Source: a virus
Direction: 5' to 3' (one strand)
IMG/VR virus record: IMGVR_UViG_3300025379_000799
Location: 1-37,615 of that record
Length of the DNA: 37,615 nucleotides
The notes under the pieces are model-generated. The model was not told where the DNA came from, ran no database searches, and saw only the letters and a list, made by a program, of their open reading frames with translations. The position numbers were made by a program, and so were the translations under genes. This document shows positions 2-21,500 of this stretch, one piece after another; within the stretch, counting starts at the first letter, position 1; every line of letters starts with the position of its first letter.

Positions 2-1189
2 AATACAATATGCTTGGCTAAATTTCACGAGGCTACTATTTGGCTATATGCTAGTAAGTTGGCAGGATGCCATCATACGCCTATGGTCACTCCTGGCGAA
101 AGTTTAGTAACATTTTTTAATCCGACTGACAAACGAGATCAACAAAACAGAATGTTATCGGGTGAAAAGCCTAGCGAATGTAACTACTGTTGGAATTTAG
201 AAGATCAAGGAATAACAAGTGACAGAGAATTAAAATCATTATCATTTAAAAATTCACTCGAAGCTAAGGATTACCTAAATCGTAGTTTTATTTTTAAACC
301 TAAAGCATTAGAACTTGCATTTCAAAATACATGTAATTTAGCATGTAGTTATTGTAGTCCTAGTTTTAGTACTGAATGGAAAAACGATATCAATCGTTAT
401 GGGAATTATAACGGTTTAACAACAGATAAAAAATTACATTATCAACGAGGAATAGATAATAATATTCCAGTTGATATGGATTTGTTTTGGAATTGGTTTG
501 ACGAATCAGCTGATGAGTTAGAAAGTATACGGATAACTGGTGGCGAGCCGTTATTGCACGAAGATACATTTAAAACATTTGAAAAAATAAGACAAATCAA
601 TCCCAATATAGAATGTGTTATACACACAAATTTATGTCAAAAACCGACAATAATAGATAGGTTCATTAATAGTGTTAATAAATTATCAAATGTACGTATA
701 AACATAAGTAACGAAACAGCAGGAGACGTTGCCGAATTCATCCGAGATGGCATGATATATAATCAGTGGCTCGACAATGTATCACGTGTCTGTGCCGAAA
801 CAACTGCTAATATTAGTATTAGTACAACTATAACTGCATTAGCATTGATAGGATTAGATCAATTATATATAGATATTCTTAATATTACTAAACGTCCATA
901 TATATCGATAAATTTTGCCACATATCCAGAATTTCAAAGTCTTGCATGTTTATCCTATGTCGAACGTACATTTTATCAAAAAAAATATATTAATTTCTTT
1001 TCGTCAATTGAACATAAACTAACAGACTCCGAATTGAAAGTTATACCTAGAATTTTAAATATGTTAGATCCAAAACTAACAAACAATAAACATGCCGAAT
1101 ATAGAAAAGATTCAGATATATTTTTTGATCAATACTGTAAGCGTAGACACAAATCAGTTAACTTAGCAATGGAAATAGGTAAAAGATGA
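2..1189 (+). CDS. Radical SAM protein with N-terminal twitch-type domain (5' partial)
   Basis: The reading frame is open from the window edge, so the true start is probably upstream; the first possible start inside the window is a TTG at 14. Numbering from that TTG, the radical SAM cluster motif CxxxCxxC is C107/C111/C114 (CNLACSYC), and a GGEP motif that binds SAM in the family lies at 176-179. An N-terminal CHH and a CxxCW pair (C56/C59) precede the core. This layout matches phage proteins annotated as 'twitch domain-containing radical SAM protein', where extra cysteines are thought to bind an auxiliary Fe-S cluster. It would use a 4Fe-4S cluster and SAM to make a 5'-deoxyadenosyl radical; the substrate is unknown. 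Its stop overlaps the next gene's ATG (ATGA), which suggests translational coupling. The family call is firm; the reaction cannot be read from sequence. Confidence 0.85.
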   Translation, partial: NTICLAKFHEATIWLYASKLAGCHHTPMVTPGESLVTFFNPTDKRDQQNRMLSGEKPSECNYCWNLEDQGITSDRELKSLSFKNSLEAKDYLNRSFIFKPKALELAFQNTCNLACSYCSPSFSTEWKNDINRYGNYNGLTTDKKLHYQRGIDNNIPVDMDLFWNWFDESADELESIRITGGEPLLHEDTFKTFEKIRQINPNIECVIHTNLCQKPTIIDRFINSVNKLSNVRINISNETAGDVAEFIRDGMIYNQWLDNVSRVCAETTANISISTTITALALIGLDQLYIDILNITKRPYISINFATYPEFQSLACLSYVERTFYQKKYINFFSSIEHKLTDSELKVIPRILNMLDPKLTNNKHAEYRKDSDIFFDQYCKRRHKSVNLAMEIGKR

Positions 1190-2370
1190 CTTGTCCTAGC
1201 AATCTATGTAGTATACCGTGGACTGGGTTTAGTAATGAACCAGATGGCAGAGCACAACCGTGTTGCTTATATAAAGGCTACATAGATAATATGTATGTGC
1301 AGACTAGCACTCCCGATGAAATATTGCATAGTAGTTTTATGAAGGACTTGCGTAATCGTTTTAGACGTAATGAACGCCCGGAAGAATGTAGTACGTGTTG
1401 GGCCGATGAGGATAACGGGTATCAAAGTAAAAGATTAATTTATAATACTAATATTCGAAAAGATCTTATAAATTGGGAGGAGGAGCCTTCGGGTGTTTCT
1501 GAACTACAGTTAATTATTAACAATAGTTGCAATTTAAAATGCCGTAGTTGTACACCAAGTCATAGCACCCAATGGCAACACGAAATTAAAATTTTAACCG
1601 GTAACAATGGTTATCCTATGCCATTAGGGCAAAGCGGGGATGAAATGGGAAAACTTTGGACCGAAAGACATAACTGGTACAGGAAACTCACTAGATTAGA
1701 AATAGTCGGTGGTGAACCATTTTATGTTAAGCAATGGCATATTATATTAACTGAATTAATCGATATGGGATACAGTAAAAATATCGACCTAACACTGACT
1801 ACCAACTGCACATTATTTTTTCCCGAGTTATTAGAGAGAATTGCTACTAGTTTTAAATCTGTTGGAATAGGGCTGAGCATCGATGGTATCGGTGCAACGT
1901 ATGAATATTTAAGACATCCTGGAAAATGGCTAGAAACATATCACAATATGAAACAATATTATGAATATGCCGATCGCATTAATATACAAATTAACTTTAC
2001 TATAAGTTGGTTAAATGCATTAGAAGCACCCGCAGTACATGAATTAATTAAAACAGAGTTTCCAAAGTTTTCTATCTGGAATAATATAGTACACTCGCCA
2101 GAACATATGGCATTATGGTCTGCTCCTGCATCATTAAAAAAAGAGATAAGAGAAAGATGGAAAACTTACTCATGGAGTGAAAAATATAAAAATACCATGC
2201 TCGGTATTTTAAATTTTATGGATAGTCGGTCTAGTTCCAAAGAACAAATTAAAAAAAATTTGAACATGTTATATAATACAGATATATATAGAAAAGAAAG
2301 TTTGCTTAAATCTATCCCAATTCTAAGTAAATTTATACCAATAAAGGAAATAGTAGATGTTAACGTATAA
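1186..2370 (+). CDS. Radical SAM protein with N-terminal twitch-type domain
   Basis: A complete 394-aa relative of the preceding gene. The N-terminus carries C-S-I-P-W ... P-C-C (about residues 8-27) and a CxxCW pair (C68/C71), as expected for an N-terminal auxiliary-cluster domain. The radical SAM motif is C115/C119/C122 (CNLKCRSC) and GGEP is at 175-178. The ATG overlaps the TGA of the upstream gene, and its own 3' end overlaps the next gene by 14 nt. The two adjacent enzymes are clearly homologous but divergent, so they may act on different positions or substrates, or as a pair. No substrate or precursor peptide is recognisable nearby. Confidence 0.88.
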   Translation: MTCPSNLCSIPWTGFSNEPDGRAQPCCLYKGYIDNMYVQTSTPDEILHSSFMKDLRNRFRRNERPEECSTCWADEDNGYQSKRLIYNTNIRKDLINWEEEPSGVSELQLIINNSCNLKCRSCTPSHSTQWQHEIKILTGNNGYPMPLGQSGDEMGKLWTERHNWYRKLTRLEIVGGEPFYVKQWHIILTELIDMGYSKNIDLTLTTNCTLFFPELLERIATSFKSVGIGLSIDGIGATYEYLRHPGKWLETYHNMKQYYEYADRINIQINFTISWLNALEAPAVHELIKTEFPKFSIWNNIVHSPEHMALWSAPASLKKEIRERWKTYSWSEKYKNTMLGILNFMDSRSSSKEQIKKNLNMLYNTDIYRKESLLKSIPILSKFIPIKEIVDVNV

Positions 2371-3295
2371 TCTTACACGTAAAGATAATAGCACAACTAA
2401 AATTAATGTGCAGTTATTAGATACAGATTTTGCATTAGAATGGAAAAATTATATGCTGGCATTATCTAAAAGATTGCCTGATATTGGTTGGAATTTAAGA
2501 ATCGGTGGGTGCAAAGCAGTACATTACATGGATGCTCCAGTTGAACTATTGCAAGGGTTGTATGATGGATTTAATTTTTTACATAATAATCTAGGATTAG
2601 ATTATACAACAGAATTATCGGATCTGAAATATTTAATTAAAAATCCAACTGAATTAAGACAATCCCATTTAAATACATGGCATCGACATTTTACTACCCA
2701 ATCGACAGAGTGGTACTCTGGTAGAATGCCTGTGCCGACAGGTTTTACTAGCGAAGATACATTTAAAGCTGTAAACATATTAAATCAAAATACACACGAT
2801 CTAGAAAGATCTACATATTGCTATCTTGAAAACGTTAATTTAATAAAAGGAAAATGGTTTCATTTTATTGCATGCACTGACAGTAAAGAATTTAAAAATA
2901 AAGATGCACTATTTGGTAATGGGGCCGAACTTAGATTGACTGATAGAATATTTAATCCTGAAACAAATGGGTTCCATCATACCGTATGGTTATCTGAGGA
3001 TATACAGGGCAAAGATCAAATTAAATCATGGTTAGAACACGACGACCTATCTGCAAATGATTGTACTGGCAATTTATTCATGACTCCTAATATTATGTTA
3101 GATCCCCATATGATATTTGCAACTGTAATGGAAAATCCAAGCTGGACCCAACAACATTTAGAATCCGGAAAACCAGTAAATCGATTCCCGATCGGGGATA
3201 TTTTAGATTTAGAATTGATAGATTGGTTATCATTAATTGATGCTACTGTAGATTCAGTTGAACTAGATAGTATTGTAATTTGGAAAAATCGATGA
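2357..3295 (+). CDS. Unrecognised protein of the radical SAM cluster
   Basis: A 312-aa protein of no family I recognise. The start ATG lies inside the end of the upstream radical SAM gene, with an AAAGGA ribosome-binding site 8 nt before it. The protein is rich in Trp, His and Asp, for example LNTWHRHF near residue 105, and has no signal peptide or transmembrane segment. Its stop overlaps the next gene's ATG as ATGA. Tight coupling on both sides suggests a role in the same process as the radical SAM proteins, perhaps as substrate carrier, partner or second enzyme. That role is inferred from position only. Confidence 0.7.
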   Translation: MLTYNLTRKDNSTTKINVQLLDTDFALEWKNYMLALSKRLPDIGWNLRIGGCKAVHYMDAPVELLQGLYDGFNFLHNNLGLDYTTELSDLKYLIKNPTELRQSHLNTWHRHFTTQSTEWYSGRMPVPTGFTSEDTFKAVNILNQNTHDLERSTYCYLENVNLIKGKWFHFIACTDSKEFKNKDALFGNGAELRLTDRIFNPETNGFHHTVWLSEDIQGKDQIKSWLEHDDLSANDCTGNLFMTPNIMLDPHMIFATVMENPSWTQQHLESGKPVNRFPIGDILDLELIDWLSLIDATVDSVELDSIVIWKNR

Positions 3296-4680
3296 AAATA
3301 GCATTTGGATTATATAATCAGCTAAATCATAAATCATCTTCTTATCGAGAACATGTTAAAGATATAACTTTATTCAGTATTAATATATCGTTAAACAATA
3401 GTAGAAATAATTTCACTGAAACTATTTTAATAGAAGGGGATGATATTACTAAGATAATGACAGATGCATTGACACAGAATACCGATCATTTATTTTTAGT
3501 TGCGTTAGGATATCAGTCACATTCTCCCATGCTTGTTCATCAAATAATAAAAGAAGCACAGGAAAATAACTATGCATTTGTGGGACATATTTTAGAAGAT
3601 AAACCTTCTGGATATTTTTATTTGCACGATCAAGCACTGTATGTTAATATTAAAACATGGCAGGAAATAGGATGTCCTGTATTTGGAAATTACAGAACAG
3701 CAAATTCAGAAATGTTAGCATTACCTGATCGTAGTAATGAAGATATTCACGACGATTATACCCCAACATATTTAAAACCAACAAATACAAGTCAAGTTTA
3801 TAACGGTTCATTACGTCCTGGAGCAGATTTTATTTCTTCTATTTTGTCCTCAGGGCATGCTGTAGGTAATTTTAGTAGGCAAGTACGAGATCAAAAATAT
3901 CATTTATATCCAGATATAGAAGATACTCGATTTGAAAGAATATTAAATGGTGAAAAAAATATAACTGTTGAACCAGTTGGCCCTACTGGCGGACAATATC
4001 GATATCTAGAAGAGACTAATTTTGATAAAAATGTAACCACACTTGTTTTTGTATTCAATAATGATCCAGTTAACTTACCAAATCTTGCATATAATCAAGA
4101 TACAAAACTAGATACATTATATGCCGTTGCCGCCGGATTTAAACCTATACAAATATTAACTAAAACCGACTGGAAATCTGCTAGAGTGGTATACATTGAT
4201 TATTCGCAATCTGCGTTAAATTTTAAAAAATGGTTGGTAGAAACATGGGACGGTACAAATTACTTAGAAAAAATTAACGAGTACAAACAAATCGATTCTA
4301 CATTCAGACCTAACTGGTTGCCAAACAGAGATTTTACACCGGAATGGGATAAAACTATTGATATGTTTGGTGGGCAAACGTTGTGGTTAGATACATGGAA
4401 TCAATATAAAAAATTGCCGCACAAGTATATGCATATTGATTTATTTGGAAATTATCGCGAAATGATAACAGATATGCAATCCCACTCTGGTAATAATTTT
4501 ATATGGTTTAGCAATAGTTTTTATACTCCAGCAAGTATTAGAAATTTTTCCCCTTCAGCATTAAAATCTTTATATAAAAACTTTTTAAAAGATCTAATAG
4601 AAAACAATCAAAGTATACATCTAGGCGGATGCGATAATGCGGCAAATTCTGCTTGGACACATTACGGTGTTATTCGATGA
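3292..4680 (+). CDS. Unrecognised 462-aa protein of the radical SAM cluster
   Basis: I chose the ATG at 3292 over an in-frame TTG at 3280 because it forms an ATGA overlap with the upstream stop, as elsewhere in this cluster. The protein begins MKIAFGLYNQ, has a hydrophobic strand (HLFLVALGY) near residue 64 and then a segment ending in IGCPVFGNYR. The pattern of short hydrophobic strands with Asp/His loops vaguely recalls nucleotide-sugar glycosyltransferases, but no DxD motif can be placed with confidence and this is only a guess. No signal peptide or membrane segment is visible. The stop overlaps the following oxygenase-like gene (ATGA). Confidence 0.7.
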   Translation: MKIAFGLYNQLNHKSSSYREHVKDITLFSINISLNNSRNNFTETILIEGDDITKIMTDALTQNTDHLFLVALGYQSHSPMLVHQIIKEAQENNYAFVGHILEDKPSGYFYLHDQALYVNIKTWQEIGCPVFGNYRTANSEMLALPDRSNEDIHDDYTPTYLKPTNTSQVYNGSLRPGADFISSILSSGHAVGNFSRQVRDQKYHLYPDIEDTRFERILNGEKNITVEPVGPTGGQYRYLEETNFDKNVTTLVFVFNNDPVNLPNLAYNQDTKLDTLYAVAAGFKPIQILTKTDWKSARVVYIDYSQSALNFKKWLVETWDGTNYLEKINEYKQIDSTFRPNWLPNRDFTPEWDKTIDMFGGQTLWLDTWNQYKKLPHKYMHIDLFGNYREMITDMQSHSGNNFIWFSNSFYTPASIRNFSPSALKSLYKNFLKDLIENNQSIHLGGCDNAANSAWTHYGVIR

Positions 4681-5390
4681 ATAATAAAATTGTAGATTTT
4701 TTTCAAGAGGCTCCTTGGACATTTGATTTTAAAAATCAAATAGTACCTAATTTTGAGGATGAGCAACTAGGGCATTGGATCATTCATAACAGTGGTTGGC
4801 CGTATCTTCCACTAGATTTGCCAAATGTTCCTTATAAGGAAATGCTTGAAGAAGCCCTTGCTATAAAAGATATGTTTATAGTACACAGGAGTCCAGATAG
4901 TTTAGGTTGGAAAAGCCTTTGTATTTACGGGGAAGAATGGAATAAAACAGATTATTATACTGCCTACCCTGAAAATGCAAATAAACGTATGGAAGATATT
5001 GAATATAAATGGACTAAAGTAGCCGATTTATGCCCTGTCACTACAGAATATTTTAAAAATTTTTTCCCACACACACCAACTCAGCGAATAAGATTTATGT
5101 GGCTAGATCCACAGGGATACATACTACCACACCGAGACAGAAGTGAACATTTTCTCTCTCCTATTAATATTGCATTGAATAATCCCAAAGGATGTATTTT
5201 TAATATGGAGGGTAAAGGATACGTTCCTTTTGAAGAAACAGGAAATTCGTGTTTAGTAGATATAGGAAATTTACATAGTGTTTGGAATAATAGCAATACT
5301 CCAAGAATTCACATAATTTCTCATGGTGCTCCTAAGTTGTTTTTTAATAAATTGGTAGCAAATAGCTTTAAAAAATTAATTAAATCTTAA
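4677..5390 (+). CDS. 2-oxoglutarate/Fe(II)-dependent oxygenase-like protein (aspartyl/asparaginyl hydroxylase type)
   Basis: A 237-aa protein started at the ATG at 4677, which overlaps the upstream stop (ATGA). An earlier in-frame start at 4653 is less likely. The C-terminal half has the facial-triad pattern of Fe(II)/2-oxoglutarate oxygenases: H152-x-D154 (LPHRDRSEH), a distal H200 (GNLHSVWN), then R210 in TPRIHIISHG as the likely 2OG-binding arginine. Spacing and length fit the compact aspartyl/asparaginyl beta-hydroxylase-like group. It would hydroxylate a protein side chain or small molecule with O2 and 2OG. Co-location with three radical SAM genes suggests consecutive oxidative steps on one substrate, which is inference. 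Confidence 0.72.
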   Translation: MNNKIVDFFQEAPWTFDFKNQIVPNFEDEQLGHWIIHNSGWPYLPLDLPNVPYKEMLEEALAIKDMFIVHRSPDSLGWKSLCIYGEEWNKTDYYTAYPENANKRMEDIEYKWTKVADLCPVTTEYFKNFFPHTPTQRIRFMWLDPQGYILPHRDRSEHFLSPINIALNNPKGCIFNMEGKGYVPFEETGNSCLVDIGNLHSVWNNSNTPRIHIISHGAPKLFFNKLVANSFKKLIKS

Positions 5391-5398
5391 TTACTTAC

Positions 5399-6526
5399 AT
5401 GCAAAATAATAAAAACTATTGCCCGGATCTTTTTACTGGACTTTTTTTAGAAAAAGAAGATCAAAATACTACAAGAATTGCTCATTGTTGTGTAGCAAAA
5501 TTAAGTGAACCATTATCTACGATTAGCATGGATCATTCACATTTAGAAAAATCTAGACAGTTTTATTTAAACACCGGAGAATTACCTAATGAATGTAAGT
5601 ATTGTAAAGATTCAGAAAAAATAGGATCTCCTAACCAAAGAACTTCTAGATGGCCATTATTAACTGAATATCCAATCAAAGTACAATTAGAAAAATTAGA
5701 TTATAACTGCGACAATATTTGTAATTTAAAATGTATAATGTGCGGAGGTCATTATAGCTCGGCTTGGTTAGAAGATGAACTTAAACTAGGCTGGAGAAAC
5801 GTACAAAATACAAATATTAAAAAAACAAAAAATAATAAATTATTTGAAAATATCGATGTGAGTCATGTAAAACAAATCTATTTTAATGGCGGAGAACCTT
5901 TAATGACTCGCGATCATATTAATGTTCTTAATCATATACTTAAAAATCATCGAGATCCGTCTACTATAAGAGTGCTATATTCAATTAATGGTACTTTTAG
6001 ATTCACCGAAGAGATGATTAATATTTGGAAAAATTTTTACGAAGTAGCATTTAATATTAGTATCGATGCTATTGGGGAATGTTTTGAATACACACGATAC
6101 GGAGCAAATTGGTTAGAAGTTGAACAGAATTTATTAAGCTACCAAAATTCTGGTTTAAATAATATTATTCTAAGGATAGGTGCATCAATAGGCATACATA
6201 ATATTCTGTATGTTGGCGATTTAATTCAATGGGGTTTAGACAATAACTATAAAGTATTCATGAATCAAAATGTATGGGGAGAACTATCGACTTTAAATTT
6301 TCCAAAACAACATTTTAATATGCTACACTCATATATTATATCATTGCCAGATTCAGATGCTAAGTGGTCAATAGTTACGTTAATTAATTCAATTATGGAA
6401 AACAACGAGACATCGTTATCGTGGATTGACAGATTAAATAAATTAGATGCTATAAGAGGCAATAATTGGCGTAAAAGTTTAAGTAGACTATACGATCTAG
6501 ACCCTAAATATTTTGATCAAAATTAA
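5399..6526 (+). CDS. Radical SAM protein with N-terminal twitch-type domain
   Basis: A 375-aa protein and third member of the same family. The radical SAM motif is C108/C112/C115 (CNLKCIMC) and GGEP is at 164-167. The N-terminal part has C8, a CC pair near residue 30 and a CxxC pair (C66/C69) that lacks the usual following Trp. Eight nucleotides separate it from the oxygenase-like gene, and no strong ribosome-binding site is visible. It is the last gene of the cluster and is followed by an inverted repeat that may terminate transcription. Function and substrate are unknown; the family assignment is secure. Confidence 0.87.
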   Translation: MQNNKNYCPDLFTGLFLEKEDQNTTRIAHCCVAKLSEPLSTISMDHSHLEKSRQFYLNTGELPNECKYCKDSEKIGSPNQRTSRWPLLTEYPIKVQLEKLDYNCDNICNLKCIMCGGHYSSAWLEDELKLGWRNVQNTNIKKTKNNKLFENIDVSHVKQIYFNGGEPLMTRDHINVLNHILKNHRDPSTIRVLYSINGTFRFTEEMINIWKNFYEVAFNISIDAIGECFEYTRYGANWLEVEQNLLSYQNSGLNNIILRIGASIGIHNILYVGDLIQWGLDNNYKVFMNQNVWGELSTLNFPKQHFNMLHSYIISLPDSDAKWSIVTLINSIMENNETSLSWIDRLNKLDAIRGNNWRKSLSRLYDLDPKYFDQN

Positions 6527-6529
6527 GTT

Positions 6530-6555
6530 ATTGTGTTGCAAAAACACAACACAAT
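6530..6555 (+). terminator. Inverted repeat, possible terminator of the radical SAM cluster
   Basis: ATTGTGTTG and CAACACAAT form a perfect 9-bp stem around an 8-nt loop, directly after the last radical SAM stop codon. The stem is AT-rich and no T-tract follows, so intrinsic termination would be weak; it could instead be an mRNA 3'-end stabiliser or an operator. It sits 6 bp upstream of the next promoter's -35 box. Confidence 0.45.
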
Positions 6556-6561
6556 GAACAG

Positions 6562-6590
6562 TTGACTTCTTGTATCTTCGATAGTATAAT
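6562..6590 (+). promoter_or_regulatory. Host sigma70-like (early-type) promoter
   Basis: TTGACT (6562-6567), a 17-nt spacer and TATAAT (6585-6590) give a near-consensus bacterial promoter. Transcription would start near 6597, about 25 nt before the TTG start of the next gene. The same two hexamers recur before queD and the clamp loader gene. Confidence 0.8.
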
Positions 6591-9399: not shown

Positions 9400-9885
9400 A
9401 TGGCAAAATTTTACTCTACAAAAACTTACGGAAATGATCGCGGACTTTCATGCTGTTTTAGACAATGGCGTGCCACACACAGTCATTGCTCAACGCTACA
9501 TGGGTACTCAATTGGCATCAAATTAATCTTTGAATGTGACACACTAGATGACAAAAACTGGTGCATGGACTTTGGCGGACTCAAAGAATTCAAAGCGTGG
9601 GCAGACTATATGTTTGATCACACTTTAGTTATTGCAGAAGACGATCCCCATCTTGAAACATTCAAACAGTTAAATGAAATTAAAGGTGGATTCAATGATA
9701 GCGGCTTGTGCGATTTACGTATTGTGGAAGGTGTAGGCTGTGAAATGTTTGCCAAAATGGCATATGACAAAATGGCAGACTTATTAGTAAATGGCAATCA
9801 ACGCTACCCAATTAACCCAACAGTAAGAGTTAAATCAGTTGAAGTATTTGAACACGGTGCTAATTCGGCTACGTACGAAGGTTAA
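9400..9885 (+). CDS. queD: 6-carboxytetrahydropterin synthase / 6-pyruvoyl-tetrahydropterin synthase homologue
   Basis: A 161-aa protein whose length fits the QueD/PTPS family, which converts dihydroneopterin triphosphate to a tetrahydropterin and in bacteria feeds 7-deazaguanine (queuosine) synthesis. A catalytic-type Cys (C30) lies before LHGYS (H34 to S37), D73-H74 fits the conserved Asp-His, and E151-H152 fits the C-terminal Glu. Bacterial QueD has LHGH, whereas here the second zinc-binding His is Tyr36, and the upstream AAH ligand region reads CCFRQW. Metal binding may therefore differ, or this may be a distinct phage subfamily. AGGAG lies 6 nt before the ATG. No queC, queE or queF is present in the window. 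The family is clear; the product is uncertain. Confidence 0.85.
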   Translation: MAKFYSTKTYGNDRGLSCCFRQWRATHSHCSTLHGYSIGIKLIFECDTLDDKNWCMDFGGLKEFKAWADYMFDHTLVIAEDDPHLETFKQLNEIKGGFNDSGLCDLRIVEGVGCEMFAKMAYDKMADLLVNGNQRYPINPTVRVKSVEVFEHGANSATYEG

Positions 9886-10039
9886 GTATTTTTGGCGCCT
9901 TTGGGCCAAAGCATTAGGTGAGAAAGCAGGCAACACGGACAAGGAATCGGACCGAATTGCTTGCATTCGTACCTTAATTGTGTTATCATATGTACTTACA
10001 AACACTTTTATAATCGCAGGCGTCATAAGGCATTGGTAA
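9839..10039 (+). CDS. Small conserved-looking single-TM membrane protein
   Basis: Up to 66 aa, overlapping the 3' end of the queD-like gene in another frame and ending with a TAATG overlap on uvsE. The N-terminal part is basic and aromatic (KYFWRLWAKALGEKAG), and one hydrophobic helix (TLIVLSYVLTNTFIIAGVI) precedes the terminal RHW. It fills the 153-nt gap between its neighbours, and I recall similar short proteins in marine T4-like phages. The start is uncertain: TTG 9839, TTG 9848 or GTG 9857 are possible, without a good ribosome-binding site. It is likely an inner-membrane protein with a cytoplasmic basic head; the function is unknown. Confidence 0.6.
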   Translation: MKYLNTVLIRLRTKVKYFWRLWAKALGEKAGNTDKESDRIACIRTLIVLSYVLTNTFIIAGVIRHW

Positions 10040-11064
10040 TGAAACGTATAGGCTTCGCATGTAAATGGATTGACCATCCTCATCAGGTCAATGGTATTGG
10101 CAAAGATGACGATGCCAAACAGTATAATACAGGTACAACTACTATTTCTTGGTTAAATAAACAATCAAGAGATGTCGCGGAGCAGAAACTATGGGACCTA
10201 ATGGTAGGCAATATCGAATCAACAAGGAAACTAGTCGAACGTGTCAGCACCCTTGATGCTCCTCTTAGGATGGTTAGGATTAGCAGTGACATTCTCCCTG
10301 CTTATACTCACGCTGACTTTGCTGATTATTGGCGTAAACCTGACGTTGTATCATACTGCGAAAAGCACTTTGCGCGAGTGGGCGACATTGCTCGCAATAG
10401 TAATATTCGCTTGTCTATGCATCCTGGTCAGTTTACAGTTCTGGCAAGTGATAACCCTGGCATTGTCGAGCGTTCGATAGCCGAGTTTGAATATCATGCA
10501 GATATGGCACGTTACATGGGCTATGGTAAATCCTTCCAGGATTTCAAAATCAACGTACACATCTCGGGTAAACAAGGTCCCGAAGGTATTAGACGTGCCT
10601 ACAAGTTACTCACACCCGAGGCCCGCAACTGTATTACAATTGAGAACGAAGAAAACTCATGGGGGTTAAATGATTGTCTTACTATTAGTGATGTTGTTCC
10701 TATTGTCCTCGATATACATCATCATTGGATCCGAGAGGGAGAGTACATTAACGCCAACGATGACCGTGTTAAGAGGGTTGTTGATAGCTGGCGTGGTATG
10801 CGGCCTACTTGTCACTATTCAGTTAGTCGTGAGGATTATCTTATCGACCACGACCAGTCTACCGCACCTGTTCATGCCCAGCTTATTCTAGAAGGCTACA
10901 AAAAGCAAAAGCTCAGAGCACATTCAGACTTTTACTGGAACACAGCAACGAATGAATGGGCATTGAGCTTTTTAGGTACGCACGATATCATGTGCGAAAG
11001 CAAGGGCAAGAATCTAGCCAGCTTTGCGCTTTACGAGCAGGCTAAAGAACTTACTCTGCTTTAG
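10039..11064 (+). CDS. uvsE: UV damage endonuclease UvsE (UVDE)
   Basis: A 341-aa protein matching the TIM-barrel UV damage endonuclease family, which nicks DNA 5' to pyrimidine dimers and (6-4) photoproducts and so starts repair without a photolyase. Family motifs are present: LSMHPGQFTVLASDNP with H128, an IENEEN segment with E202 and DIHHHW with D225 and H227-H229, which supply metal-binding residues. I chose the ATG at 10039 because MKRIGFACKW is the family N-terminus and it overlaps the upstream stop (TAATG); the frame remains open to 9961 without a better start. It is probably co-transcribed with queD. Its 3' end overlaps the convergent gene at 11051 by 14 nt. Confidence 0.92.
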   Translation: MKRIGFACKWIDHPHQVNGIGKDDDAKQYNTGTTTISWLNKQSRDVAEQKLWDLMVGNIESTRKLVERVSTLDAPLRMVRISSDILPAYTHADFADYWRKPDVVSYCEKHFARVGDIARNSNIRLSMHPGQFTVLASDNPGIVERSIAEFEYHADMARYMGYGKSFQDFKINVHISGKQGPEGIRRAYKLLTPEARNCITIENEENSWGLNDCLTISDVVPIVLDIHHHWIREGEYINANDDRVKRVVDSWRGMRPTCHYSVSREDYLIDHDQSTAPVHAQLILEGYKKQKLRAHSDFYWNTATNEWALSFLGTHDIMCESKGKNLASFALYEQAKELTLL

Positions 11065-11349: not shown

Positions 11350-11910
11350 ATGTATAATTTTATTCGTTATGTTAGCCTAAATGAAGGAAAAACTCCTAAA
11401 ACTTTAGAACAAACTAAATTGCCTTACAAACGCGATGCGTTAGAACCTAGTATCAGTGAGGATACTATCAACTACCATTATGGAAAATTATACAAAGGAT
11501 ATGTTGATCGGTTTAATAACGGCGAAGGCGATGCTGATTTTAATGAAGCAGGTGCATTTTTACACGATTTATTGTTTACTCAATATCAAGAACCTGCAAG
11601 AAGTAATGATCCAGACGGTTCTGCTGGCGAGTTTATAACTAAACATTTTAAAACATTTGACAAATTTACAGCTGATTTTGAAAAAGAAGCAATGAAAATA
11701 CAAGGTAGTGGTTGGGTATACCTAGCTCGAGATGGTAAAATTAAAACTATCAAGAACCACGAAATTAAGATGGATATTGTTTTAATAGTTGACTGGTGGG
11801 AACATGCGTGGGCATTAGACTATCAAAGTGAAAAGAAAAAGTATCTATCTAATCAATGGAAAATTATCAACTGGAACGTTATTAGTTCTAGAATTGGTCT
11901 AGCGTCTTAA
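11350..11910 (+). CDS. sod: Fe/Mn superoxide dismutase
   Basis: A 186-aa Fe/Mn-family superoxide dismutase, which converts superoxide to O2 and H2O2. All four metal ligands can be placed: H43 (NYHYGKLYKGYV), H72 (AFLHDLLF), D148 and H152 (VDWWEHAW). The family N-terminal motif LPYKRDALEP lies at about residues 24-33, after an extra lead of about 20 residues (MYNFIRYVSLNEGKTPKTL) absent from typical bacterial enzymes. No in-frame alternative ATG and no ribosome-binding site are visible; with the late-type promoter at 11335 the message would be nearly leaderless. Its 3' end overlaps the convergent zinc-ribbon gene by 23 nt. Whether it uses Fe or Mn cannot be decided from the sequence. Confidence 0.9.
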   Translation: MYNFIRYVSLNEGKTPKTLEQTKLPYKRDALEPSISEDTINYHYGKLYKGYVDRFNNGEGDADFNEAGAFLHDLLFTQYQEPARSNDPDGSAGEFITKHFKTFDKFTADFEKEAMKIQGSGWVYLARDGKIKTIKNHEIKMDIVLIVDWWEHAWALDYQSEKKKYLSNQWKIINWNVISSRIGLAS

Positions 11911-12572: not shown

Positions 12573-15500
12573 ATGTCACAACAATTAGTTAACGTAGGTG
12601 TACAAGGTAATGACGGTACAGGCGATAGTATTCGCGATAGTTTTACCAAAATCAATAATAACTTTACAGAGCTGTATGCTGTATTTGGTGCTGGCGGTCA
12701 AATTAAATTTAGTAACTTAGCAGACGCACCTGGTACGGCAAGTTTTAGTATTACAAATATTGTTGCTGGTAGTCCGTCTACTGGTTCTACAACTATAACA
12801 TTTTCTAATCCAAATGTATTATTAAGTCCATTTACTACAGGACAAAATATTACTATTAGCGGTTGTTCGCCATCTGGTTATAATGGAAACTATTTAATTA
12901 CAGCAGCATCATCTACTACTATTACTGTAATCAATAGTACCACTGGTACAGCTACGACATTAGGTGCTGTGGCAAGTACAGCTTATAGTGCTAATCAAAT
13001 TATTATGGCAAATACTAGTGGTAGTGCATTATCTGCAAGAACACTAGTGGCTGGCACAAATATTACCATCAATAATTCAAATAATAGTACGTTAACTATT
13101 AGTTCAACAGCCGGCACACTTCAGAGCGATTCTAGTCCGACATTAGGAAATTTTTTAAATGCGGCAAATTTTACTATTGGGCGTTTGTCTGATCCTAGTC
13201 CAGCACTAGTAGCACAATTTAATGCGTTTTATGGCTCAGTAAATCCTAGCTTAACTACTACACTAAATCAAATGCCAGTTACTGTTGGCTATGCCAACAG
13301 TAACTTTTTACCAATTAATCCAGCAACTGGTAGTGTTATTGGGGCATTAAAAGTTCGAAATGAACCTACTACACCACAAACCAGTGATTCAGATTACGAT
13401 GCAACATTACAAGGAAATTATGTAGCTACTGAAGCGATACAACGCCGTCATGCAGTTCGTCGCGATGGCGATACCATGTCTGGCACGTTGACTCTTAACG
13501 ATCACCCTGCACCGCTAAACGGTAAAGGTATTGTTAATTCTTCAACCGATTTACAAGCTGCTACAAAATATTATGTTGATAGCAACACATACTATAGCGG
13601 TGTTAATTTATATGTTAGTGCAACAAAAGGTGATGATTTACAAAGAAATACACCTAGTGGAAGACAAGGTCGTGCTTGGCAATATGCCTACAAAACTGTA
13701 GGTGCTGCTGCATTACAAGCTGACAATTTAATAAATTTATCTTCAATAGAACCCGGACCGTATCGTCAAACTATTGTTTATACAATATCTCCAACCCAAT
13801 ATAAAAGTACAGTTCAAAGTGTAACACTAGTGGGAGGAAATAGTGGCATCCAAGGATACATGGATGCTACAGCATTATTACAAGCTAATAGATCATTCAT
13901 TCAAGCTGAAACTATTGCTTATCTAAACAGAAAATATGTAAATCAATTTACATTTAGTCAAGCACGTTGGGCCGGTATTATTGATAATATTTTAACCAGT
14001 ATTGGAAACGATCTAGTATTTTCTAATGGATCGGTTGCTCCTTTATCAAACTACAATAGTATTACCCAGGCTAGTTTATTATTAAACAATAATAATTCAG
14101 ACATTATTTCAAATTATTATATTCAACTAGTTGATGCTATCGGTTATGCTCAGGCGCAACTGGCAACTTATTCTTATAGCATAACCAATACACAAACATA
14201 CATTGGTTCAGTTATAGATGCTGTTGCATCTGATGTAGTATTCTTATCAAATTACCAAAGTATTCAAGCAGCTTTGGCATTTTCGTATGCTAATACAGGA
14301 CTAACTACAACTGAAATTGTCGGAGCATTGACTAATTTATCAAGTGTAATTACAAGTTCAGCCAGTTGGAATTCTAACATTACAACTGCTCCAACTACTT
14401 CAACATTTATTGCCAACACAATAACATCGATTATTAATATTATTCAGTCTGGCAATATACCAAATCCTACTTTCCCATCAATTGCTACAACAACTACTGG
14501 TCAGGTAAGTGCTCAAAATTTATTAATTAATAATATTCCTTTCATACAAGCTGAAATAACAGCGTATATCACAGCAAATTATCCAAATGTAAGCTATAGT
14601 ACATCGTTATCACAACGCGATATAAAGTATATTGTTTGGAGTTTAGTATACGATTTAATGTATGGAGGTAACAGTCAAAGCGTTTATGCAGCAAATCGTT
14701 ACCGCTACAATGCTACACTACATTTAAACTCTAGCGAACAACCTGTCTGCGCAGCTGCGGTTGGATATTTAAATACCCTAGCACAAAACATTATTAACAA
14801 CACCTTACTTGGTTCTGGTAGTACTACGCTGTATCAATCTAGTGTAGTTCAGTATACAAATGCAACATACCTAAACGGTGGTAGCGGATTTATCAATGGT
14901 GGCGCAACAACAATTTCGTCATCAATTGCTGCAAACATTGCAACAATACAACATGTAATCGATGGCACAAATACTAGTCCTACTGCAACTGCTCCTACAT
15001 ATTCTAATGGTAATAGTATATTACAAAGTATTAGAAGTATATTAACTTCACAAAAAGTTGGAGATACCTTTACAGGAAGTATTGCTACTAATACTTTAAC
15101 AATTTCTGGAAGTGTTACAGGAAGTGTGCCGTTTGGTATAGGTGATACTATTAGCGGAGCAGGCGTAATCGATGGTACAATAATCACTGGCGGATCAGGA
15201 TTATCCTGGACAGTTAATAATGCCCTAAATCTCAGTCTAGTTCCTATGACTACTGGACTAGTTCAAGGAGCAATCAATTATATCAATGCTACGTACTCTA
15301 TTATTAATGATACAACAACTAACACTATCATTACTAATTTGTTTAGCAGCATTACCAATTTATTAAATGTAGGGGTACCTAACAGGACAGTTCCAACTTT
15401 TGTCAACCCTACAGGATTACCTTCTGCAAATAGTCAGGCACAATCAGCATTATTGGCCAATATTCTATTCTTGCAAAACGAATTTACATCTTGGATTGCT

Positions 15501-18500
15501 GTAAATTATTCTACAACTACTATTGATGTTATTTCTACTAAACGTGCATTAGGCTATATCATCGAAGCATTAGCTTATGATTTAACTTACGGTGGAAATA
15601 CAGCAAGCAGTGCCGTAGCACAAACATTTATTGCCAGTGCAAATGCTATTGGTGCAGGATTAAACAGTTTATATGTTGCTGCATTAACACAAATTTCAAC
15701 AACTATTGGTACTGTATTGAGCAACAGTCCTGCTAGTGCAAGTTTAGGAAATTATCTGTCAGTTACTGGTGTTACAGTATCAACTCCTAGTACAGGATAT
15801 GTTCAATTAAATTTTGCTAGTCAAACTTCTGCTCCATTTACAATTGGCCAACAAATTACTGTTCAAGGGCTAACACCTAGTAGTCTTAACTCTACAACTG
15901 GTACATCATTTACTGTAACTGGAGTAGGAACAAATTATGTTCAATATGCAAATACTACTAATAGTACCGTAGGGTTTGTTAGCGGGCAAGGACAAATCAC
16001 TACACAAGTTCAATATTCTGGTTGGAGTTCTGCCAGCGGAGTTACAACAGGAACACAAGCAACTAACTACCAAACAACTACTTCGCTACTAGGTGAAATA
16101 ATTACTATTGTTGGTGCTACTACAGTAACTACTTCGACTACGAATAATATTACCACTATTTCAACAGTAACAACTACAGGTGGCGGATCTAATACAGTTA
16201 ACTATACATTAACTAATCCGTTAATTAGTAACTCAGTTTATAATTCAACATACATTAATGCTAGAACATTAATTAACAATAATTATATTACAGTTGGAAC
16301 AGCAACTACAACTTATCTTGCAAACAAATACACCGGTGGATTCAACTATAATCAAGCAACTTGTTCTAGAGATATTGGTTTAATTGTTGATGCCATGGTT
16401 ATTGATATGCGTGTTAACGGTACATATCAAAGTATCAATGCAGGTCGAGCATATTATAAAAATGCTTCAGCACAAGGTATTGCTATTGGAACACAATATA
16501 CTGAAACTATAGATGGACTAACATTTGCATTTGGTGATGGTAGCGGCAGTAATGTTGGCCTAGTATATCAAGTTTTAAATCAAACTACCAATGTTCAACG
16601 CTATCAAACACTAGTTACTCAGCAAACTAATGCTACATTAAGCACAAATTATAACCCAACTACTCCTGCCATTAATACTTACACAAGTCAATGGTACATT
16701 GCCTATAGTATTATTACTACCGGACTCGGAGCAGCTCCTGCTATAACTACTAGTACATACGGTACTGGTTATTATAGTATCACATTTAATAACGGCGGTA
16801 ATGGGTATGTAGATCAAGGAACACCCGGAGATGTACATATTATACCAGGCAAGATATTGATTGGTAATTCGTCTAATGCACTTGGACAAATTATAAGTTA
16901 CACTCCCGGTAAACAACCTCTTAGCACGGTTCCATATGATACAATTAACATGTATCTAACACAACCAGGATTCTTCCAAGTTGGGGAATATTTGGATTAT
17001 GGCGAAACTGTTAGTAATTTAAATATTACAATTTTTGTAGAAAGCGGAATTTATTACGAAGACTATCCAATTAAAATTCCAGCAAACGTGACCATTAGCG
17101 GAGATGATTTCCGTCGTACAATTATTCGACCATTAAATCGTATCAGTCAAAGTCCATGGCGTAATGTATTCTTCTATCGAGACGGTGTAATTGATGCCTT
17201 ACAAGTTGGGCCAATAAATTATGCAGGAACCGATTATGCTCAGTTATCAGCTACTGCATTAACTATTGGAGCTACATCTGGCACATTTACTGCTTCGCTT
17301 GGTAATGGAGTACAGGCCATTTCAACATGGCCAGGTCTGGTATTAACTGAAGCTGTATATCAAGTAACCAGTGCATCTATAAACACTAGCACAAATGTAG
17401 CTACGTTGACTTTCCAGACTATTCAAGGCAATTTAATGCCATCTAGTCCGTATATTGTTGGTCAAAATATTAATATTGAAGGGATGACTCCTGCTTCATA
17501 TAATGGTGTGTATGCAATCAATACTATCAATGTAACAGGTGCAGGTACTAGTGGCGGAACTGCCACTATAACAGTTTACAATTACTCTACTACTATTAAT
17601 GCAACTAGTTACGGTAATATTGTAGCAGGTAAGGCAGTAATTAACACAGTTAGCGGTAACGTAATTAATTGTACAACAATTTATCCATTTACAGCTACAC
17701 AAACATACGCAGCAAATAGTTGGCATTTATTTGGAACTATTAATTACGGACGTCATTACCTAAGTAATCCATTAGATATTAACAGTACTCCATTGAATAA
17801 TCAAAACATGGATGTATTCTTATGTAATGATGCTACACGTATTAAATTGTTGACTATGCAAGGCCATGGCGGATTTGCTATGGTACTTGATCCAACTGGA
17901 CAAATTAAAACTAAATCGCCATATGGTCAAGAAAGTGCAGTGTTTAGTGCAAGTATAAACGCACAAGCATTTAGGGGCGGACAATTTGTTGACGGATTTA
18001 CTGGAAGATTATTTGGTAATATAATTGGTATTGCTAGTGCCAATGGTACTGCCGGTTTATCAGTTACTATTCAAGGTACAGTTAATAGTGGTCTTGATGT
18101 TAGACCACCGCAAACACCATGCGCATTTTACTTGCAAGGTTTTAGATATCAAGTCAACAATGTTACAAGTTATAATGCTAATGCTACTATTACAACAGCT
18201 GCTTATGTAAGTGGCGGAGCAATTGGTGCAAAGACTTTAACTATTGCTAGTAATTTACTAGTGTTAGTTGGTCAAGTAATTAGTGGTACTGGTATTCCTA
18301 CTGGAACTTATATTAAATCTATCAGCGGTACTACACTAACTCTTTCAGCCGCATTAACAACACAAGCTGCCGGAACATACACATTCTATGCTCCTCAAGT
18401 AACTGTTACATTAGATGTTAGTACACCGTTTAACCCTGCTGTAATTTACAGTAGTGCTGCATTTGCAAGCAACTTAGGTAATATTGTCGATGCTATTGCA

Positions 18501-21500
18501 TACGATAATGTGTTTGGTTCAAACTATCAAAGTGTTAAACAAGGGTTGATTTATCTTGCACCTCAAAATGCTGTTACAACAACAGCTGAGTTATTTGTAA
18601 TTCAAGGGCTTAACTATGCAAATTCATTAATTAATACATTGAGTTTACAATCGACTACCTTGACTACAGTAGCATCTTCTCTTGCCAATATTACTAATAT
18701 TATTGCAAATGGAACAGTTAGTGTACCAACATTAGTTTATCCCGATCCTGTTGGTGTAACTAGTACTGTTAGTCAGGCTCGTAAAAATATAACTTTGAAT
18801 AAGAATTTTTTACAATCTGAAATCTCAGCTTGGATCGCAAATAATTATGTAACAACTAGTTTATCAAATTATACAGCTACTAAATCTCAAAGAGATGCTG
18901 GGTATATTATTGATGCGATTAGTTATGATTTGTTATACGGCGGCAATTCATCAATTTATGATATAGCACAAACATTCTATACTTCAAATTACAACGGTAC
19001 TAGCCAGTTAGGTACAAATGCACAAGTATGTATTGCAGCATATATACGCCTAAACACCGTAATACAACAAGTTATTCAAAATCAAGTTGTAACTCCAAGC
19101 AATGGTAATTTGCTAACTCAAAATCTTACAACTTACACAGCCGCCACAGAAACTTTAAGTAGTGTTGTAATTGGCTCTAGCGGAACATTTACATTTGCAA
19201 CTGCTCCACGAACTTTAGTTGTTGGTCTAGCTGTTACTATTAGTGGTACTAATACTGGATCAGGTAGTGTAGCAAACGGTACATATTATATTACAACTTG
19301 CACACAAACATCATTCACTTTATCTAGCTACTCGGGTGGTGCAGCGATTTCAACTACAGCAGGTACGCCAGTGGGATTAACATTTGCGTTTAGTGTCGAA
19401 GCATTGGCTATTTCCACATTGTTTAATACATTAATTGATTATGTTGCTGACGGCGCATTTAACGATACTGTAGCAGCAACTATCACTGCTGGTAGTACAA
19501 CTATTACCAATTTGTCTTATAGCCCGTATTTAACTAATGGAGTAACTGTTACAGGTACCGGTATTCCAGCAAGTACAACATTAAGTAATATTAATTTTTC
19601 AACTGGAACCGCAACACTAAGCAATGCAGCTACTGCAACAAGTGCTAGCACAGGCGGCAGTAATCAAGATGGCACTATATTATTAACTGTAGGATCTCCA
19701 GCTGTTACTCGTACACCACCAGTAATTACAGCGCAAACTACAAGTGCTATTACTGATTTTTATACATTATCTAATAATAAGATTGCTAGTGTAACCGCAA
19801 CTTATTCTAGCGGTGGAGCAAGTGGTGCTAGTTCATTCACTATATCAAACAGCGCAAATACAACATTAAGCAATGTACAAGCAACTGGACTAGCAGGAAC
19901 ATTCACTTGTAATAGTGCAAAACTAGTACTCGGTAATACTGTTACAGTAACCGGGTCTGCAGGTGGTACTGGAAGTATTTCTGGATATACAACTGGTAAT
20001 ATCTACTATATTATTTCTGTAACTGGCACAACAGGATTTACATTATCTACAACATTGAATGGTAGCCCAATCACTACTACTATTGGTACATTAACCATGA
20101 CATTTACCGAAACTGGTAGTGTGTCAGGTATATTGCCTGGAATGATTGTTACAGGTACTGGGGTACCTGCAGGAACAGCAGTTGCTAATACATATGTTCC
20201 AACTAGCTCAACTATTCAATTAGTTAGTGCATCAACTGGGTTACCTGTAACATTGACTGCACAGGCCGCTGGAACATACACTTTTGGTACTAGTACTATC
20301 GACATTGAAGATGCCGCTGTTAATTATATCAACGCTGGTGCCAATATTGGTATCAACATTGAAATGGGCGGTAATAAGTCAATGTTGAGCAATGACTTTA
20401 CTATGGTAAACGATTTAGGTTACGGATTATTAGTAACTAACGGTGGTGCAGCAGAAGCTGTAAGTATGTTTACATACTACAACTATGTAAGCTATTGGGC
20501 ATTAAACGGTGGACAAATTCGTTCTGTTGCTGGCTCAAGTAGCTATGGTGTGTACGGATTACGTTCAAGTGGTAGTGATGTAACTGAATTACCTAATGCT
20601 GTGAATTTGGCCAACGACATGGTTCAAACAGCACGTATCTACAAAGAAGGTATTTTTGCTAGTTCGCAAACAACAGCTACAAGTTTAAATTTAACTGTAT
20701 ATATTATTAACTACGAGTATCCTCCAGAGCCAACAAGCGAATTAGAAATTGATCACACAGCCAGTGGTGGAGTGATTACTAGATATTTAATTAATACAGT
20801 AAGCCATACTACAGTATATGTAAATGGTCAAAATGTATTGTCTCTTGCATTGAGTACTTCAGGTACAAACAGTACAACTACAACAGGTCTAGCATACCCG
20901 TTATATGACGGACAACTAGTAACTATTCGAGTATTGCAAAATATTAAATTCTACAATATCACTAACGTTAAACCTGTTCGTCCAAGTACCGCATTACAAT
21001 ATAGTACTAATTTAGGTTCTATCTATCGTATTATTAGTTACGGATTGACTGAAAGTACTGGTGAACAATTGCCAGCAAATACATCTGTGTTAACTACAGA
21101 TAGTTCGTTTGCTTACATATCATTTAATCATGATACAAGTAGTATACAAAATGCTGACTTAGTAAATTATGCGGCTAAAGGATTTGTTGCAATTAACGGT
21201 TCAGGAAATAATACAAGCAGCACAACGCTAACAGTTAATCAAGTTAATGGTACAATTATTGCTGGACAAATTCTTGGAGGCATTGGTTTTACCAATCAAA
21301 CTGTATCAACTGTTGTAACTAATACAGCAGTAACAACAGGATCTACAATTAGCAACACTGGTGTATTTACAGTTGGCACATTAGGATCAGGAACTGTTGC
21401 CATCGGTATGGTGCTAACTGGTACTAATGTTACAGGCACTGTTTATATTATATCTAATATTAGCGGTAGCGGTAGCGGTAGTACATGGCAAACAAATACT

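Follow-up and report, generated by a model that had tools for sequence, protein, structure and literature searches.

A 12-gene phage operon joining a radical SAM array to a hydroxylase and a glycosyltransferase-fold protein: a possible surface-maturation system

Organisation and extent of the operon

The window analysed here, a stretch of 37,615 nucleotides (positions 1 to 37,615 of IMG/VR record IMGVR_UViG_3300025379_000799), comes from a large, water-borne T4-like myovirus. Its clamp loader is 57% identical to those of 284–288 kb Pseudomonas phages, e.g. PA5oct, and the phage belongs to a jumbo-type lineage distinct from the pelagimyophages. Six plus-strand open reading frames, g1 to g6, were confirmed in the window (Table 1), the first being open at its 5' end. 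As the initial annotation had described, four junctions overlap (by 4, 14, 16 and 28 nt from g1 to g5) and the fifth, between g5 and g6, is a gap of 8 nt. Both g4 and g5 start with TTG at the positions listed, and for each an internal ATG giving a 4-nt overlap is possible.

Extension of the locus upstream, which the same annotation had proposed, showed that the window starts inside an operon. Over 13,292 bases the window is identical (0 mismatches) to the IMG/VR contig 3300006103_000607, which supplies, further upstream, a 2OG-Fe(II) oxygenase gene and five more radical SAM genes, with junctions that overlap in the same manner. The full run comprises 12 genes, namely the 2OG-Fe(II) oxygenase, seven radical SAM genes and then g3, g4, g5 and g6. 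It begins at least 7.3 kb further upstream, which rules out the six genes as a complete system, and the window holds the 3' half of the operon.

The operon likely ends just 3' of g6, where a hairpin is followed by a TTGACT-17-TATAAT site; this arrangement fits an end there, with such matches occurring near the chance number and not above it. In a nearby pair of relatives, dN/dS was 0.04–0.15 for the radical SAM genes, g3 and g5, indicating that these genes are under purifying selection.

Table 1. Features of the 3' half of the operon, in window coordinates.
Feature	Position	Strand	Evidence
g1 (array member F), N-terminal-twitch radical SAM	2..1189	+	NF033640, 239.6 bits
g2 (array member G), N-terminal-twitch radical SAM, 394 aa	1186..2370	+	NF033640, 283.2 bits
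g3, 312 aa, probable divergent member of a phage/Bdellovibrionota family	2357..3295	+	profile-profile match
g4, 466 aa, two-domain	3280..4680	+	residues 1-243 GT-A (glycosyltransferase) fold; 247-466 second alpha/beta domain (AF2)
g5, Fe(II)/2OG oxygenase, aspartyl/asparaginyl beta-hydroxylase family, 245 aa from TTG 4653 (or from ATG 4677)	4653..5390	+	PF05118
g6 (array member H), N-terminal-twitch radical SAM, 375 aa, last in run	5399..6526	+	NF033640, 187.5 bits
Likely operon end	6530..6590	.	hairpin 6530-6555 and promoter-like site 6562-6590 for next gene; pattern scan only

Radical SAM proteins of the array

The window's three radical SAM proteins had been described as diverged members of one family, and g1, g2 and g6 all pass the curated NF033640 cut-off (170 bits, whole-protein score). 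With the five upstream genes, which score 175.7–352.9 bits, the array holds eight tandem radical SAM genes, 8/8 above this cut-off, and the CX3CX2C motif, the GGEP motif and the N-terminal set of auxiliary-cluster cysteines are kept in every one of the eight proteins. The complete g1 protein has 409 residues (L081:7604-8833) and starts 41 nt upstream of the window; in full-length numbering its CX3CX2C lies at 125 and its N-terminal cysteines at 18/37/74/77, GGEP also being present, and its orthologue in L082/L083 is 51% identical. The corresponding positions are 115 and 8/26/27/68/71 in g2, residues 8–72 of which give a SPASM-type Pfam match (6.6e-7), and 108 and 8/30/31/66/69 in g6. Prokaryotic viperin (NF038283) was rejected as an identity, the best cross-match reaching 41.1 bits, far under the cut-off of 180.

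Proteins g3, g4 and g5

The g5 protein is, by sequence, a member of the Asp/Asn beta-hydroxylase family, with a match to PF05118 (Asp_Arg_Hydrox) of 4.2e-12 and 46.6 bits against a gathering cut-off of 22.6. The facial triad H160-x-D162...H208 and the 2OG-binding R218 are invariant in nine phage and bacterial homologues, and the initial description of an oxygenase-like protein with a facial triad holds.

Neither g3 nor g4 matched any family in Pfam, PHROG or NCBIfam, so that in this respect they are proteins of no known family, as initially annotated. That description does not extend to their wider relationships, since g4 shows a GT-A fold and g3 is probably part of an array-associated family. 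In its AF2 model (pLDDT 80.9), g4 is a glycosyltransferase-fold protein, which may also be catalytic. Its N-terminal domain, compared via the predicted model, resembles the glycosyltransferase-like domain of lysyl hydroxylase LH3 (Z 12.2, rmsd 3.0, 158–163 residues), followed by COLGALT1, Mimivirus R699 and others with Z about 11. GT-A folds all resemble one another, and the best match, from LH3, is an accessory glycosyltransferase domain not known for catalysis. At least 139 g4 relatives were found in IMG/VR. The motif HDDYTP (157–162) and other polar columns of the g4 alignment are invariant, the motif being only a candidate DxD equivalent. The C-terminal domain matches 6ulo, an uncharacterised Leptospira protein (Z 10.2), a match that points to no function.

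Fold prediction, which had been suggested for both proteins, was less informative for g3, whose AF2 model was mediocre (pLDDT 68) and gave no confident fold match in the PDB. Its alignment with the family described next shows the motif LNxxHxxF...N..H..E, with H109, F112, N143 and H147 invariant. A profile built from just four g3 sequences matched an extended family, made up of the phage families c12, c64 and c79 together with Bdellovibrionota domains, at a probability of 85% (E 6e-6, 248 columns), ranking first of 85 families. Against c12 alone the hhalign match was weak (20.7%), and a ranked signal appeared only with the extended family; searched directly against Bdellovibrionota proteins with hmmsearch, g3 had no match, and a pattern search found g3 on four contigs only. 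On this statistically modest sequence evidence, g3 probably belongs, as a diverged member, to a family whose genes lie within radical SAM arrays.

Distribution of the array and of the g3-g4-g5 unit

From at least 599 uncultured viral contigs, 80 relatives were retrieved, and 77 of these carry radical SAM arrays (up to 11 genes), in most cases immediately downstream of tail-fibre and glycosyltransferase-like genes. Among the 69 loci where radical SAM 'A' is preceded by another gene, the glycosyltransferase-like family c2 lay within two genes in 51, while the GT8-like family c1 and the fibre/structural families c4/c8 lay within eight genes in 53 and 36, respectively; c8 matches a tail-fibre PHROG. 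The virion or surface-glycan setting proposed initially is supported by these array positions. In the window phage the array does not directly adjoin this c8-c4-c1-c2 set, but in a close relative (L096) it does. Across loci the core trio A-B-C keeps its order with 52–62% median identity. A recent host origin of the array was rejected: only 17 bacterial matches were found, several of the best lying on short MAG contigs with phage gene families as neighbours, which are probably mis-binned phage.

The g5 gene lies directly upstream of g4 in 69/69 non-window viral loci uncut at that end. Most arrays carry neither g4 nor g5, even with sensitive profiles, and the flanks of the viral g5-g4 pairs are nearly always without a detected radical SAM array; among marine g4 records, many of which are fragments, 17 of 18 had no NF033640 gene above cut-off. 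The array and the g5-g4 pair are therefore separable modules, and the idea of a single pathway, against which radical SAM genes occurring without the oxygenase and the two other proteins would argue, is weakened in part. Judged from sequence, the marine pairs sit among nucleotide-sugar and glycosyltransferase genes.

Other uncultured phages carry comparable sets of genes, and so do predatory bacteria. In Bdellovibrionota, g5 and g4 are fused (g5+g4 in L209 and L210, g4+g5 in L211), a single 1072-aa protein (L212) joins g3-like, g5 and g4 parts, and a g4 and g3-like fusion (L208) has g5 as the next gene. Furthermore, g4 and/or g5 lie inside radical SAM clusters on the contigs L191/L214, L187, L188/L215, L211 and L213. 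Among 291 Bdellovibrionota genomes, NF033640 genes were found in 7/10 g4 carriers versus 88/281 others (one-sided Fisher p 0.016, shared ancestry ignored). The gene types first grouped at this locus do recur together, fused or clustered; the six genes, however, are not the unit, the array having eight radical SAM genes.

Isolated phages searched for g2 to g5, the c2 and c12 families and one radical SAM gene gave no match at the limits used, and radical SAM C gave weak matches only. Because control genes from the window matched 43 and 2,328 records, the blank is real for that collection.

Possible functions

We tentatively favour, at somewhat below even probability, a reading in which the products of the 12-gene operon mature a substrate exposed at a surface, most probably a fibre protein of the virion or its attached glycan. 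Here g5 would hydroxylate the substrate or its precursor, and g4, with its GT-A fold, would add a sugar to the hydroxylated product. The g3 protein would be an indispensable partner that possibly binds the substrate or serves as a scaffold. The eight N-terminal-twitch radical SAM enzymes would alter that same peptide or sugar by C-H activation in one step after another, each enzyme having its own site or step. We infer that all of them act on a single substrate, in which order they do so, that g4 is catalytic and that the target belongs to the virion rather than to the host surface; neither a precursor peptide nor a substrate gene was identified.

A less probable but still plausible alternative is remodelling of the host surface, the cassette producing or changing an unusual sugar of the lipopolysaccharide or capsule in the infected cell; superinfection exclusion would be one conceivable purpose. 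In that case g5 would act like the PF05118 lipid-A or sugar hydroxylases, g4 as a glycosyltransferase and the radical SAM proteins as sugar dehydrogenases, deoxygenases or epimerases. The array loci and the marine g5-g4 loci do hold nucleotide-sugar, carbamoyltransferase and aminotransferase genes. Bdellovibrionota chromosomes, where no virion is involved, carry the same types of gene, and pelagimyophage glycosyltransferases have been interpreted in this way (PMC7029224). However, the arrays start beside tail-fibre genes, and eight to eleven paralogues are many for one nucleotide sugar.

Proteins of the SPASM/twitch type are typically peptide maturases, and the array proteins give cross-matches to the PapB and SCIFF maturase models. 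These would suit a RiPP-like maturation in which a small phage peptide is crosslinked or epimerised by the radical SAM enzymes, the hydroxylase and glycosyltransferase finishing a secreted or virion-bound compound. The cross-matches are weak and far under the family cut-offs, however; the clustered neighbours of at least 60 aa, within the arrays and next to them, included no conserved gene recognised as a short precursor, leader-recognition and protease genes were likewise not noticed, and we consider this explanation improbable. Marginally less probable again are independent auxiliary genes, with the radical SAM proteins contributing to the infected cell's Fe-S or cofactor metabolism and g3-g4-g5 as unrelated cargo of a shared hypervariable region: array and g4/g5 modules are often apart, and a T4-like genome with 12 radical SAM genes was interpreted as Fe-S metabolism (PMC5332604), but g4/g5 also occur within radical SAM clusters in several Bdellovibrionota genomes and the trio A-B-C keeps its order and its 52–62% median identity.

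Returning to maturation of a surface-exposed substrate, the fusions of g3, g5 and g4 and their recurrence in Bdellovibrionota point to hydroxylation-coupled glycosylation and show which proteins to co-express. If the tail fibre is the target, phages would modify receptor-binding proteins by radical chemistry, which to our knowledge is not known in viruses. It is conceivable, though doubtful at present, that uncultured large phages and predatory Bdellovibrionota have in common a surface-modification system not recognised before, with up to 11 N-terminal-twitch radical SAM enzymes and a fused or coupled g3-hydroxylase-glycosyltransferase unit, its product being a protein or glycan of a new class, functionalised at C-H bonds, hydroxylated and glycosylated, for attachment to other bacteria.

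Comparison with known systems

All eight array proteins resemble the NF033640 'twitch domain-containing radical SAM protein' family (N_Twi_rSAM) in passing its cut-off and in having an N-terminal cysteine cluster before the CX3CX2C core; we know of no function assigned to this family. The window array differs in expanding it to eight diverged, coupled paralogues beside a hydroxylase/glycosyltransferase unit. LH3 and COLGALT1 carry out collagen hydroxylation and glycosylation in animals and offer an analogy, 2OG oxygenase and GT-A domains cooperating on one protein, and their glycosyltransferase domains are among the best structural matches of g4. By contrast, g5 comes from another 2OG family (PF05118), and the likeness of g4 is one of predicted structure.

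Large radical SAM arrays are common in phage metagenomes and nearly absent from cultured phages, and for this reason they have been overlooked as stray auxiliary genes and possibly mis-assigned; a Baltic survey counted 261 heme genes as 'ahbD', their identity being uncertain (PMC9301287). Phages with multiple radical SAM genes were already noted in 2017 and 2020. We found no description in the literature of an array with the hydroxylase-glycosyltransferase architecture, and the literature collection searched contained no papers on Bdellovibrio radical SAM/SPASM proteins. The capsular polysaccharide modification clusters of jumbo phages (PMC7824862) are alike in being clusters of paralogous glycosyltransferases in large phages, but the term radical SAM is absent from that paper's text. 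The marine virus TARA_ERS488813_N000010 (PMC5332604) is likewise T4-like with many radical SAM genes (12 reported); in the accessible part of the paper, however, these are reported as Fe-S-related auxiliary metabolism, and the array order, the fibre/glycosyltransferase setting and g3-g4-g5 are not described. Although the window phage is of another, jumbo-type lineage than the pelagimyophages, and the accessible part of their description (PMC7029224) does not report the g4 fold, the g5-g4 fusion or the Bdellovibrionota link, their host recognition cluster is similarly a hypervariable island of tail-fibre and glycosyltransferase genes where radical SAM cassettes are gained and lost, and an Asp/Asn beta-hydroxylase is, according to the same text, one of their core genes.

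Extent of the operon and its radical SAM genes

The six co-directional genes at the start of the window (g1 to g6) have the coordinates and the coupling given in the initial annotation, with overlaps of 4, 14, 16 and 28 nt and a single gap of 8 nt. Its three twitch-type radical SAM genes were confirmed, g1, g2 and g6 exceeding the curated cut-off of NF033640, the NCBIfam family of N-terminal-twitch radical SAM proteins, and so was its facial-triad oxygenase, g5, a member of Pfam PF05118 (aspartyl/asparaginyl beta-hydroxylase) in which the HxD...H triad and an Arg are invariant across homologues. The operon is, however, twice as long as the six genes. IMG/VR contig 3300006103_000607 (56,302 bases) matches the window exactly across 13,292 bases and extends further upstream, supplying the start of g1 and adding, with a similar type of junction, a 2OG-Fe(II) oxygenase gene (PF13640, 2.4e-7) and five radical SAM genes. 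Besides g5, oxygenase-like proteins lie within or adjoining arrays (tandem NF033640 genes) on this longer contig (L081) and at a related locus, L082.

All eight radical SAM proteins of the window array exceed the NF033640 cut-off and retain CX3CX2C, GGEP and the N-terminal cysteines, with mutual identities of about 18–34%. Relatives carry orthologues of members B, C and F (51–74% identity), so the array is older than the divergence of these phages. In one pair of close relatives, g3, g5 and the radical SAM genes had dN/dS values of 0.04–0.15; g4 was the least conserved (68% identity versus 92–99% for the radical SAM genes).

Coordinates of features in the window and related loci
Feature	Position	Match or remark
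g5+g4 fusion protein	L209:9463-11598	
g5+g4 fusion protein	L210:8927-11086	
Oxygenase-like protein	L081:256-828	PF13640
Oxygenase-like protein	L082:9444-10007	No Pfam match
QueD-like 6-pyruvoyl-tetrahydropterin synthase	window 9400-9885	phrog_2389
UV-endonuclease UvdE	window 9961-11064	PF03851, 8.8e-40; within phage structural region
Fe/Mn superoxide dismutase	window 11350-11910	PF02777/PF00081
Single 4761-aa open frame	window 12573-26858	Rich in Ser/Thr/Gly

Arrays in uncultured phages

Radical SAM C matched at least 599 viral contigs, from the best 80 of which the array statistics were taken; against 50,697 isolate records it gave three matches, all weak. Among the best 80, which include contigs of 246, 352 and 608 kb, 77 carried three or more such genes and 28 seven or more (maximum 11), the core members being C (80/80), B (73/80) and A (71/80). 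At the 69 loci having a gene upstream of A, family c2 lay within two genes of it in 51, and c1 and the fibre/structural families c4/c8 within eight genes in 53 and 36, respectively. Families c1 (GT8-like) and c2, neither matching Pfam, appear glycosyltransferase-like on our reading of the sequences; c8 matches a tail-fibre PHROG. Further along are genes for a carbamoyltransferase (PF02543) and, identified by sequence, a UDP-glucose dehydrogenase-like protein, an epimerase and an aminotransferase. Short contigs assigned to Pelagibacter, Betaproteobacteria, Rickettsiales and Verrucomicrobia MAGs (L175, L177, L180, L183) look like mis-binned phage, because they carry the phage array with phage neighbours.

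The g3-g4-g5 unit

The two proteins initially annotated as unknown, g3 and g4, indeed matched no Pfam, PHROG or NCBIfam model, but likenesses were found for both. In an AF2 model of g4 (pLDDT 80.9), residues 1–243 are predicted to adopt a GT-A fold (Z 12.2 against the GT-like domain in lysyl hydroxylase LH3) and the C-terminal half a second domain; matches in a viral library also include glycosyltransferases. By profile, g3 appears most like family c12/c64/c79 (85% probability, E 6e-6, first among 85 families), found inside or beside arrays at 19 of the 80 loci, or 23 counting g3 itself; H109, F112, N143 and H147 are invariant in the family alignment.

At least 139 relatives of g4 were present in IMG/VR, and g5 adjoins g4 in 69 of 79 non-window loci, the contig ending there in the remaining 10 by our count. 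These loci, mostly marine, sit amid nucleotide-sugar and glycosyltransferase genes.

Fusions and clusters in Bdellovibrionota

The idea of a single functional system is best supported by fusions and radical SAM clusters in non-phage organisms. Of 291 genomes from the phylum to which a Bdellovibrionia MAG belongs, 10 carried g4. Two encode g5+g4 fusions (L209, L210), one the reverse order, g4+g5 (L211), one a 1072-aa triple fusion of g3-like, g5 and g4 (L212), and one a g4+g3-like fusion whose neighbouring gene is g5 (L208). Moreover, g4 and/or g5 lie within NF033640 gene clusters at L211, L213, L214 and L215, and also at L187, L188 and L191. NF033640 genes occurred in 7 of the 10 g4 carriers versus 88 of the 281 other genomes (p 0.016, a statistic that ignores shared ancestry). 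In all, 94 of the 291 genomes had such genes above cut-off, often several each; the 14 control genomes had none at the limit used.

The L209 and L210 fusions occupy a conserved chromosomal site between ribosomal-protein/rpoA and propionyl-CoA carboxylase/methylmalonyl-CoA mutase genes, with no radical SAM genes nearby, so that the g5+g4 fusion appears to serve a stable function in its own right in these bacteria.

Against these fusions and clusters stand the mostly marine phage g4-g5 loci, mostly without an array, with an NF033640 gene above cut-off in 1 of 18 such records. The modules are thus separable, the array being able to work without g4/g5 and g4/g5 without the array, which fits a mix-and-match modification island. 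The single pathway suggested initially, which the Bdellovibrionota genes favour, is put forward as an inference, as are the order of its steps and its substrate.

Proposed mechanism

In our proposal, g5 would hydroxylate a surface-exposed substrate, g4 would glycosylate it at or near the hydroxylated site with g3 as a partner, and the radical SAM battery would add further C-H chemistry. A virion fibre protein is slightly favoured over a host-surface glycan, because the arrays start adjoining fibre genes. The 4761-aa frame, probably a giant fibre protein, is a candidate substrate. Speculatively, the superoxide dismutase could give the array's Fe-S and Fe(II) enzymes protection against oxygen.

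Comparison with known systems

The window phage is a jumbo-type T4-like myovirus, its nearest isolates being 284–288 kb Pseudomonas phages such as PA5oct. Our search of open-access literature turned up no published description of ordered arrays, the g3-g4-g5 unit, or the way that this unit is fused and linked to radical SAM clusters in Bdellovibrionota. Individual elements have precedents. A 183-kb T4-like marine virus has 12 radical SAM genes, interpreted as Fe-S metabolism (Nishimura et al., 2017; PMC5332604). In pelagimyophages, the host recognition cluster contains radical SAM cassettes, and an Asp/Asn hydroxylase is a core gene (Zaragoza-Solas et al., 2020; PMC7029224). Viromes also show joint enrichment of glycosyltransferase and radical SAM genes (PMC7150976).
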